Below are positions 32,889 to 63,800 of a DNA stretch of 64,000 bases, one piece after another. The position numbers and the translations under genes were made by a program. The notes under the pieces are model-generated. The model had not been told where the DNA came from and searched no databases. It worked only from the letters and a program-made list of their open reading frames with translations. Positions within the stretch are counted from its first letter, which is position 1, and every line of letters begins with the position of its first letter. Source of the DNA: Gymnorhina tibicen (lineage: Eukaryota > Chordata > Aves > Passeriformes > Artamidae); NCBI GenBank assembly GCA_013399875.1, contig VXAZ01004027.1:905849-969848 (forward strand), written 5' to 3'.

Positions 32889-52621
<19,733 letters not shown>

Positions 52622-55430: not shown

Positions 55431-55605
55431 CTACAGCCCCATCGAGGCGCCCGTTTCCCTCAGCCCGTCATGCCCACAGTCCCATCGAAGCACCCGTCCC
55501 CCCCAGGCTGTCATGCCCACAGTCCCATCGAAGCATCCATCCCCTCAGCACACCCGTCCCCTCAGCCCCATCGAGGCGCCTGTCTCCCACAGCCCTATGG
55601 TGATC
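55430..55605. repeat. 43-bp minisatellite, about four copies
   Basis: The core CCATCGARGC starts at 55439, 55482, 55525 and 55568, an exact 43-bp spacing. The units have the form CCCATCGAAGCACCCGTCC followed by a CCCTCAG or CCCACAG spacer. A weaker fifth unit may follow. The array sits at the upstream edge of the TRMT61A CpG island. Confidence 0.8.
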
Positions 55606-59499: not shown

Positions 59500-59772
59500 G
59501 ATGGCACACGAGATGGATTCCTGCCCTCACGCTCGTAGTAACGGATGGTGCCCGGGCCGCCTCAGCGCCGCGAGAGCGCCCCGGGAGGTCCCTCCACCCC
59601 CACCCGACCTCCCCGACGCCGAGCAAAATGGCGGTAAGCGCGGGCCCGGCCGGCGGCACAACGCCCGCCCCACCCGCCGACGCGCGGCCCAATGGAATGA
59701 ATGGGCTATAAATAGCAGCCAATGGGGCGCCGGCTTGCGCTCTATATAAAAGAGGCGCGGCGGTAGTGCCGG
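59500..59772 (+). promoter_or_regulatory. CKB: CKB core promoter
   Basis: In order the sequence shows CCAAT (59689-59693), TATAAATA (59707-59714), CCAAT (59719-59723) and TATATAAAA (59743-59751), embedded in CpG-rich DNA. Transcription is expected about 30 bp after the proximal TATA, near 59773. The upstream TATAAATA would then lie at about -66, which agrees with the mammalian CKB promoter, where a TATAAATA at about -60 sits beside CCAAT boxes and a separate weaker element near -30 directs initiation. Here the proximal element is a good TATA box. Confidence 0.85.
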
Positions 59773-59845
59773 AGCTTCACTCGGACTGGGGCTGTACGGT
59801 GCGCAGAGCTGCGCGGAGATTCTTGGTGTAGCTACGAAGCCCGCG
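59773..59845 (+). other. CKB: CKB non-coding exon 1
   Basis: The exon ends at a consensus donor, GCG|GTAAGT (GT at 59846-59847). It contains no ATG, as expected for a leader exon. The 5' end is estimated from the TATATAAAA box at 59743. Since both downstream coding exons have acceptor sites, this leader can be joined to either. Confidence 0.75.
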
Positions 59846-60596
59846 GTAAGTCCCGGGGCAGCCGAGCCATTCACAGCCTTAAAACAAAGGATTTTAATTT
59901 TTTTCCTTCCCTCGGCCCCTTTTTTTTTTTTTTTTTTTCTCCCCCTGCTGTGTGGGGTGGAGCCGGTCCAGCTGAGGAGGGGCGCGAGGGGCGGCGCGAG
60001 GCAGGGGCGCAGCCGGGGTGGGGGTCGCGGGGAGGGGCGCAGGTGCTCGCCGGGCTGGTTCGGCTCTAAAACCAGATTAACCCGGTATTTAGCAGGGTAG
60101 TTACATACGCTTGCCCCGTCCAGGTCCCCTGAGGGAGCCGTCTGTTGTGTAAGGGCTTGTTGGATGCTGCCTTCTCCTCCCCTCCCCGGTCGGGGAGCAG
60201 CCGGGGTTCCGCGGACGCGGAGGGTGCTAGGCGCTGTGGCTCCTCGGGATCCCCTCGCCCGGCANGCCCCGGAGCCGCGCGCGGGGTCTGCCCGGTGCTG
60301 CAACGGTCGCTCCGCGCGACCTTGGGCGCGTCCCCTCACTCGGGCGGTGCCCCGGGAGGCGGGAGAACCTTTGCCCCTGCGGCCGGGGATGGTGGGGACG
60401 GGGCAAGGCTGGTGGAGGTGAAGAACTTTATTTCTTTCCTCCTCTTTGGCGATTGTGGAAGGTGGTGTAGCAGCAGAGGTGTTAAAGGCGCGGGTGGAAC
60501 GTGAGCCAAGGTGACCTTCTGGGTGCCTGGCGTTCCCCCGGGCGGTCCGGAGGCTGCCAAGCCCCCAGTGATAGGCTTCCCATCTTTCTCCCCTAG
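59846..60596 (+). other. CKB: CKB intron 1 (to exon 2a), GC-rich with G-runs
   Basis: The first intron continues the CpG island. It contains a run of 19 Ts (59920-59938) and then many GGGG runs on the plus strand between about 59953 and 60037. A single undetermined base (N) is at 60265. A 370-codon open frame on the opposite strand is a by-product of the GC content. Confidence 0.75.
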
Positions 60597-60809
60597 TGAC
60601 TGCGGTAGGGTCAGCCATGCCCTTCTCAAACAGCCACAACCTCCTGAAGATGAAGCACAGTCCTGAGGAGGAGTACCCTGACCTGAAAGCTCACAACAAT
60701 CACATGGCTAAAGTGCTGACCCTGGACCTGTACAAGAAATTGAGGGATAAACAGACTCCCAGTGGATTTACCCTGGATGATTGCATCCAGACTGGGGTTG
60801 ACAACCCAG
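60597..60809 (+). CDS. CKB: CKB alternative first coding exon 2a (MPFSNSHN form)
   Basis: The acceptor is TTTCTCCCCTAG (AG at 60595-60596). After 20 untranslated bases the ATG is at 60617 in a fair context (GCCATGC). It codes for 64 residues plus the first base of G65 and ends at the donor CCAG|GTAATG (GT at 60810-60811). The start MPFSNSHN is the N-terminus of vertebrate brain creatine kinase in general. A second in-frame ATG at 60650 (Met12) has A at -3. Residue 56 is Cys in DDCIQTG, where creatine kinases usually have Val. Confidence 0.94.
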
Positions 60810-63800
60810 GTAATGGGATCGTTAGGTCTGCATAATGATCTGTTCTCCCTCCTGACTGGAAGTGCTTCTTGACAATGGTACCCAAAGTTCTCAAGCTACT
60901 GGGGGACAAATCTTCTAAAACATTGAGAGACTGCTCTAAAAGCATGGCTCTGTTAGGAAGCCATGTTTCTATCAAGCTATGTTCCATGCTGTGATCTGAC
61001 ATATCAATTCCCAGAAACTTCAATTATGTAACTGCTCTGCTAAATACTTTCAATCTGAAGAGGAAAAAAAAAGTCAAACCAAATGCATTCTAATTATAAC
61101 TCAGCCAGGGAGGGGGGGGGAAAAAGTCAGTTTACCTGGTTGTCCTGGTCTATTCCTATTCCAGACTGGTTATGTGATGATCTCTAGCACTTCTATGAAA
61201 AAGGGGGAGCAGATGTGTTTACATGTTAACATTACAGTATTTATTTTTGCTCTAGCAATATCAAAATGGCCCAACTAAATAATCAGAGACTGCCTCCTGA
61301 TGAGGAGTACCCGGACCTGAGCACCCACAACAACCACATGGCCAAAGTTCTAACCCTGGATTTATACAAGAAACTGAGAGACAGAGTCACGCCCAGTGGC
61401 TTCACCCTGGATGATGTCATTCAGACTGGGGTTGATAATCCTGGTAAAATGCATTGAGAATATTCCGTGTGAACCAGCTGAAGTAACTGGTGCTTTTGAA
61501 TATGGTGACTTAAAACTAATCTTGTGGAGGTGGTATTTATAAGCAGAATACAGAAATGTAGCTCTGTAGCAGAAGGAGCAAAAAGCAAAGCATGCTTGCT
61601 TGCAGCAAAGCATGATTGTTTAGACATGAAGTTCTATGCAGTGATCTAAATTAGCTAGTGAAATTAGATGTGCTGTGCAAATTTGTCCTAAACCAAGCTT
61701 GGCGAATGAGCATGGTTTAATGACAACAGCTATGGGTTTCCATAGCACTGCATTTGACTAACTGGATGAAATGTAAAATGTAGGGTCTCTCCAAAAGTTT
61801 AAGTGACTAGTCTTGCCACTAAAGAACTTGCCTGGGTAGTGCTGCACTGGAGTACAGCCAAACGTCACACAAACTTAGCTCTTCTGACTTTATTACCACT
61901 CCAGGCCATCCCTTCATAATGACAGTAGGATGCGTGGCTGGTGATGAAGAATCCTATGAAGTGTTCAAGGAGCTCTTTGATCCAGTTATTGAAGACAGGC
62001 ATGGTGGCTACAAACCAAGTGATCAGCACAAGACCGACCTGAATGCTGATAACCTGCAGGTATAAACTTTTGATCAATTACAGATTATCGGTCTGAGGAC
62101 TGTGAAGTTGTTGGCAACTGCCTAAACTGGTTGCTCAGGCTCTATCCCCTTGCTTCCACTGAGCATGGACACTTGGGCTGTGAGTCTGGTGCAATCAGCC
62201 TGAAGAGCTTGCTGCTGTGGGATGTCAGTGGCTGGGTACGGCCAGGCAGCTGGCATGCAGCAGGAGCTTTTTTCAGGTGATGCTGCAGTGTGGGTTGTGC
62301 CAAACACCTTCAGTGTGTATTTCCATGAGCTGTGGGGTGTAATAGTCAAGCTAAACAATACTGTCCTGGGAGTCAAGGACTACCGTAAAATTGAAACACT
62401 TTTTGGATCCTAATTACTAGCTGATGTTGTCATACTATTAAGTATTTTTACAGCCAGGAGTAAGGATTCCTAATCATTTTATGGATTTTAAATGTTAGTG
62501 TAAATGTACTCCAGTGTAAACTCTTGGAGTTCCTAACTCCATGTTGATTTGCTATCCATAGATCATATTGAAAGTATGAGACTTGGGAGAACAGTAATTA
62601 ATAATTCTCATTTGCCAGAGTAAACACTTACCTAAAGAAGGTTTTGCCTCATGTTGATATCTCTAGATTGCAAGTCTGAAGGGGTAACAGAAGCCCAGAC
62701 CGCAGTCTGAAATGGACATAAAACTGATGTTCTGGTGATATCCATGTCTTACAGGACTACTTAGTAGCTGTAGCCTTGGCCTCAAAGCAAGAGTTGTGTT
62801 ACACAGATACTTGAAGTAATGCTGAAAAAAACAGTCCTGCAGTGAGGCACTAGCTTATGGGCCAAGTAGTCAACGTCTCAGGTGGAAAGTGCATTCTTAA
62901 ATGCATGGGGGCTACATGTGTTTAGGGAAGATATCTTGGTAATAGGGTGGTACTCACTGGTTTCCTAATCCTGTAGGGAGGTGATGACCTGGATCCCAAT
63001 TACGTGCTAAGTTCCCGTGTCAGAACTGGCAGAAGCATCCGTGGATTCTGTCTTCCCCCGCACTGCAGTCGAGGAGAGAGGCGGGCTATCGAGAAGCTCT
63101 CTGTTGAAGGTAAAGTGAGAACTGGGTGCATCAGGGAGACACTTCTGTCCTTTGTGCAAGAGGTGTCCTTTGCAGTTTGAAAATGGAGGCACTTGGCAAA
63201 AGCCACATCCCTGGGGACTTAGTCTGAATGTGGAGCTTTCCCTGGAAAAGGCTCATTACATTAGAGCTGCTTCAGCATTGCAGCTTGTAGCTGAGAGCAA
63301 GAGCACATGGCAGAGGGAAGCTGGACTGCATTAAGTTGACCTCTGCTGATCTCAAAAGCTTCTGTCTGTGTATGTGGGGAAAGAGGTTGGTTCATCACGG
63401 CTCAAACCTGAAATGTAACAGGTATGTAGCAACTGCAGGGCTTGAGTCATGGGGTGCAGTATTTTGTGGCTGCTTTTAATTGACTTGCATTAATGCTCAG
63501 CTTATTTAGAGATGTAGTCTTGCTCCGAATCTGCAGCTGACTAGAATAAGCCCTGGTTTGCAGTGAAACTCCTCAGCTGTTTTTTTTTTTTTCCCTTCTA
63601 TTGCTTCCCAGTGCTTAAGGTACAGTTCTGGAGACTGTAGTTGTTTCAAAACCTCTCAAGGGCAGGGTAACAGTCCTTGACTAGAATAATACTGCTTGTT
63701 ACATTCATAACCTTGGTTCTCCTTGGAAGAAAAGCAGTCTCCATTTGTACAGTTCAGCAGCAGTAATGATTCTATACTGCATGTGAGGGAACAAAGGCTA

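Follow-up and report, generated by a model that had tools for sequence, protein, structure and literature searches.

The window, the whole stretch of 64,000 nucleotides that was analysed, very probably contains the 5' part of a bird gene for brain creatine kinase (creatine kinase B, CKB), and the bird is probably a passerine. The gene would offer a choice of two first coding exons, its leader, exon 1, being joined either to exon 2a or to exon 2b, and then to exon 3. To judge from their codons, 2a and 2b are the two copies of a real and old exon duplication, with selection on the amino acids of both.

Gene identity and exon map

The domain PF02807 was identified in both predicted proteins, the one starting in 2a and the one starting in 2b. 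The best PDB match was 1QH4, a creatine kinase of chicken origin, with the human B-type enzyme close behind for the 2a form. The N-terminus of 1QH4 is of the 2a type and, with the 2b form as query, none of the matches to the listed chains of creatine kinase starts before residue 7. Two open reading frames of the minus strand (52225-52587 and 41887-42453) contain GCD14 (tRNA methyltransferase) domains; lying within 41887-52587, they are probably TRMT61A, placed head to head with CKB. TRMT61A is also the neighbour of CKB in mammals, in the same head-to-head order. The gene thus presents the N-terminal ATP:guanido phosphotransferase domain, a best match of B type and a TRMT61A-like neighbour, as a cytosolic creatine kinase B does. 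Upstream of CKB, at 55433-55544, there is also a C-rich 43-bp tandem repeat in 2.6 copies. The elements of the 5' part are the following:

59742..59754, plus strand: TATA-like box of the CKB promoter (CTATATAAAAGAG), 103 bases 5' of the exon 1 donor
59775..59845, plus strand: leader exon 1, non-coding, with approximate 5' end; donor GCG/GTAAGT after 59845
60597-60809, plus strand: exon 2a, MPFSNSHN type; ATG 60617, donor CAG/GTAATG
61256-61443, plus strand: exon 2b, MAQLNNQR type; ATG 61266, donor CTG/GTAAAA
61905-62059, plus strand: exon 3, common to both forms, finishing the glycine codon begun by 2a or 2b
62977-63109, plus strand: exon 4, common to both forms

The first ATG after the leader is that of 2a or that of 2b, depending on the exon joined. 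The MPFSNSHN start of 2a is a type also present in CKM and in mammalian CKB, and the MAQLNNQR start of 2b is 5 residues shorter. The sequence-only reading had assigned to each of the two exons an acceptor, a start codon and a donor that splits a glycine codon after its first base, and its coordinates and phases proved right to the base. Two observations bear on the kind of bird. As far as DNP, the 2a protein has exactly the sequence of its counterpart in a passerine, Picathartes gymnocephalus (P0080), and the LDDC residue of the 2a of the window is common to 38 of the 118 bird rows described below, all of them with passerine names as judged by eye.

Divergence of exons 2a and 2b

Over the 47 codons from EEY onwards, a recount gave the same 17 synonymous and 5 replacement differences as the earlier reading, the other 25 codons being identical. 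Three estimators gave a dN of 0.08-0.09 and a dS of 0.77-1.39 for these codons, and the differences fall 5/4/19 on the first, second and third codon positions. The 141-nt stretches of the two exons are identical at 113 positions, whereas the next best place in the whole window, on either strand, reaches 60. Outside the shared part the likeness is near chance, with 29/100 bases matching upstream (14/30 in the nearest 30) and 34/100 downstream. The earlier proposal of an old duplication with both copies held by selection is borne out by this codon pattern together with the conservation in birds.

The exon pair in other birds

A protein search was carried out with 2b and the best 120 of 566 matches were taken, of which 118 bear bird names. 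Both exon cores were identified in 118/118 of these bird gene models. The ranking was by 2b, so that a bird lacking 2b would be missing from it, as would one represented by a lone 2b isoform, since a model with both exons scores twice and displaces such isoforms from the best 120. After the last bird row the bit scores fall from 191 to 159, which indicates that the two-exon bird group is complete among the best 120 of 566 matches. No palaeognath name was found among these 120.

The first 55 residues of the 2b of the window are unchanged in 82 of the 118 bird models listed, and the ATG start of 2b is present in all 118. The mean number of differences per 43-residue core among the birds listed is 0.57 for 2b and 4.46 for 2a, so that on these models 2b is the better conserved copy in birds. 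That 2b is a leftover exon, out of use, is hardly credible in view of this stronger conservation, of the start codon kept in every bird row listed and of the excess of synonymous over replacement codons. Most bird models listed are predictions running 2a into 2b, mostly skipping exon 3, whose start is present in only three of the 118 (P0016, P0033 and P0037). As the other 115 are without it, the models attest the DNA and not the messages, and many deposited bird CKB proteins need correction.

Predicted use of one exon at a time

The two exons form a homologous tandem pair with equal phases, and keeping both breaks the reading frame: when 2a is joined to 2b, seven codons are read from the joint before a stop. 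A coding message can therefore keep only one of the two, and their mutually exclusive use is predicted from the frame. The gap between the exons is 446 nt and the AG-free zone 5' of 2b is only 18 nt, which leaves room to splice both, so that exclusion rests on the frame or on regulation. If based on the frame, the exclusion of messages with both exons would presumably act together with nonsense-mediated decay. Steric exclusion or a distant branch point was also considered for the pair and is unlikely on this spacing. A mechanism of the latter type is described for the mutually exclusive exons 4a and 4b of OGDH, held apart by distant branch points (PMC7969005). OGDH resembles CKB in having two alternative exons in a gene of energy metabolism; the 446 nt and the 18 nt without AG seen here make an OGDH-type mechanism unlikely for CKB.

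The splice signals of the two exons are unequal. The tract before 2a has 16/17 pyrimidines vs 12/17 before 2b, and 2a has the better donor as well (CAG/GTAATG vs CTG/GTAAAA). For the start codons, ranked by the usual start-context rule, the order is reversed, the context of the 2b ATG (AAAATGG) being stronger than that of 2a. In the 2a message codon 12 is a further in-frame ATG, which 116 of the 118 bird models listed retain. This fits the title of a 1990 paper by Soldati et al., cited in PMC10123092, which speaks of heterogeneous amino termini in chicken.

It is quite unlikely that 2b is instead transcribed as a first exon from a promoter of its own, so that transcription, rather than splicing from exon 1, would make the choice. 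Several teleost proteins of 2b type start 7 to 11 residues further upstream, where the 5' end may differ, and an ATG at position 60963 of the window could run into 2b in frame, were 61027 a donor. Nevertheless, the 2b acceptor has a pyrimidine tract, needless for a first exon, and the chicken B-CK messages studied by Wirz et al. and Soldati et al. in 1990 reportedly share their leader.

The intron between the two exons

Part of the intron between 2a and 2b is mistranslated in bird gene models:

60987..61027, plus strand: intron stretch adjoining the right arm of the candidate hairpin described below, mistranslated as CCDLTYQFPDTSII

The frame opened by the ATG at 60963 continues to 61027 and reads into 2b if 61027 is taken as a donor, the joint used by the bird gene models; the corresponding GT in the window (61028) falls inside the right arm. 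A real extra exon ending at 61027 was considered and set aside, as by eye many other birds carry other residues at the place of the 60963 ATG. The CCDLTYQFPDTSII read into 2b is therefore taken as a probable artefact of prediction on a conserved intron. Residues like it (at least 8/14) were found in 103 of the 118 bird models listed, or 99 by a stricter pattern, with 1.66 mean differences per 14 residues vs 4.60 per 9 just upstream, a figure that leans towards conservation because the rows were picked by likeness to the stretch.

A candidate hairpin around exon 2a

Exon 2a is enclosed by a 23-nt inverted repeat with the following arms:

60085..60107, plus strand: left arm of the candidate hairpin, in intron 1
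61025..61047, plus strand: right arm of the candidate hairpin, in the intron between 2a and 2b

As RNA the arms would pair without a break, with 2 G-U pairs and -33.1 kcal/mol. A helix of this kind may loop out 2a and bring exon 1 to 2b, reducing the effective distance between them from 1410 to 447 nt; without the helix, 2a would be used by virtue of its better pyrimidine tract and donor. This explanation of the choice is tentative and, on the present sequence evidence, rather doubtful. It is fairly probable that the inverted repeat plays no role in splicing and is due to chance, to an old mobile piece or to an element acting otherwise.

The complementarity flanking the exon is beyond chance, as 300 dinucleotide shuffles of the two introns gave no helix above 15 bp vs the 23 bp found here. 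The arms have no other copy in the 64-kb window at up to 3 mismatches, and the intron beside the right arm is similar in the 103 bird models mentioned, more so nearer the arm; all three points speak against a repeat without a splicing role. On the side of a repeat without a splicing role, the helix is part of the minimum-energy fold in only 3 of 9 contexts, including 59775-61060, a transcript that ends shortly after the right arm. In the remaining six, folds with the helix are worse by 0.8-1.9 kcal/mol as far as 61255 and by 6.4-8.3 past it, and a fold over all three introns gives the helix a probability of 0. No known RNA family (Rfam) was found at gathering score in 59700-62100, and the comparison across birds covers the side of the right arm only. 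As for competing partners, intron 1 and the intron after 2b give 12 bp (shuffle mean 11.2) and the two later introns 10 bp. Outside the arms, the T-run at 59924-59939 and the A-rich 61057-61072 (16 nt, 81% complementary) could lengthen the stem.

The looping out of an exon by long-range pairing of introns is a described class (PMC8052449). The cases described there share with the window intron sequences that flank an exon and are complementary to each other; they differ in having a bound protein, a response and pairing across species, whereas the hairpin of the window is known from its sequence alone. With the candidate hairpin, the way in which the start exon is chosen becomes open to direct test.

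The exon pair beyond birds

Three protein searches were considered in all, with the best 120 of 566, 171 and 424 matches, in protein clusters at 90% identity, which hide isoforms. A search for 2b in lizard CKB, proposed by the sequence-only reading, was answered by a Phrynosoma model (P0119) with 2a followed by 2b and cut at the joint. The same order was found in a carp model (P0120). The turtle rows P0172 and P0349 are of 2a type only among the matches listed.

A search with the 2b exon of carp gave, among the best 120 of 171 matches, several teleost proteins whose start is of 2b type and which bear the names 'testis isozyme' or 'brain a'. Such a start was identified in brain a isoform X1 of Gadus (P0148) and brain a isoform X3 of Centropristis (P0138), and a start of 2a type in brain a isoform X1 of Pseudoliparis (P0207). 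These teleost isoforms resemble bird 2b in their start, in their spacing to YPDL and in being, by name, isoforms of one gene, and they differ in being only about 65-75% identical. In the 16 fish rows used the YPDL spacing equals that of birds by construction of the cut; Met stands at the place of the bird 2b start in 11 of the 16, and Leu is present there in P0342 and in the 2b row of carp. A protein of 387 residues (P0136), whose contig has no more than 1377 bases, fits a spliced fish message or a retrocopy. P0253 and P0285, two fragments of creatine kinase under the names Klebsiella pneumoniae and Escherichia coli, appear to be animal contamination; their contigs measure 531 and 277 bases.

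Age of the duplication

A single exon duplication before the split of ray-finned and lobe-finned vertebrates is likely on these proteins, and the exon pair is probably much older than birds. Two trees bear on this, built on 62 columns from hand-picked rows, with the window and 8 of the 118 bird models. The first contains 8 invertebrate rows, with P0290 dropped and P0117 trimmed, and the second is the same without these 8. In the vertebrate-only tree all 26 rows of 2b type form one clade (98/93.9), and at one site Arg is present in 26/26 of them vs Lys in 35/38 others. In the tree with invertebrates, bird and lizard 2b join (96/92), as do all MPF-type rows including CKM (91/91, not starred); the rest of this tree, the grouping of all 2b rows included, is not resolved. 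The best tree keeping all 2b together was here 0.54 log units better than the one found first.

Independent duplication of the exon in birds and lizards and in teleosts is unlikely. Two forms of it were compared on both trees: a duplication in sauropsids only costs 14.4 log units (p-AU 0.16) with invertebrates and 10.2 (p-AU 0.08) without, and one in teleosts only 15.6 (p-AU 0.15) and 12.6 (p-AU 0.10), so that neither is rejected. In addition, the columns are few and the choice of fish rows went by similarity to the 2b exon of carp. A counter-case to one old exon pair is Albula, whose two start types are divided between two gene bodies in tandem, with 89% identity; the 2b type, in the second body, there belongs to a separate gene. 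Against independent origins, however, are the single 2b clade of the vertebrate-only tree, the Arg shared by all its members, and the order of the exons in the gene and the shorter start, the same in both groups.

If the MPF clade with CKM inside holds, the single duplication would predate the split of CKM and CKB, a point that 62 columns cannot carry. Invertebrate kinases also have short starts, so that shortness may be ancestral. In a wider and improbable scenario, the pair would predate the split of muscle and brain creatine kinases, 2b would keep the older, invertebrate-like short start, and the MPF start of 2a would be the vertebrate form shared with CKM; mammals would have lost 2b, and the choice in birds would be set by the intron hairpin looping out 2a.

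Relation to known systems and significance

The chicken B-CK gene, with its Ba and Bb subunits, is reported (Wirz et al. and Soldati et al., both 1990) to have two first coding exons and distinct N-termini from one gene, like the CKB of the window. The likeness to chicken pointed out by the earlier reading finds support in the PIR record P0012, where MPFSNSHN and MAQLNNQR exons like those of the window are present. This chicken record differs in joining both exons in one chain without exon 3, and its label leaves the assignment to Ba or Bb undecided. The arrangement with two start exons is thus itself already known from chicken. In the creatine kinase literature searched, with most subscription papers outside it, no report on exon 2b of bird or fish CKB was found. 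New here are the presence of the pair in the 118 bird models listed, a constraint that in birds is stronger on 2b than on 2a, a candidate hairpin open to testing, and the probable link of bird 2b to the fish isoforms.

If the age of the duplication holds, alternative N-termini of brain creatine kinase would be an old feature of bony vertebrates. The 2b-type subunit of birds and the 'testis' start of fish would then be one isoform, which work based on mammals could miss.
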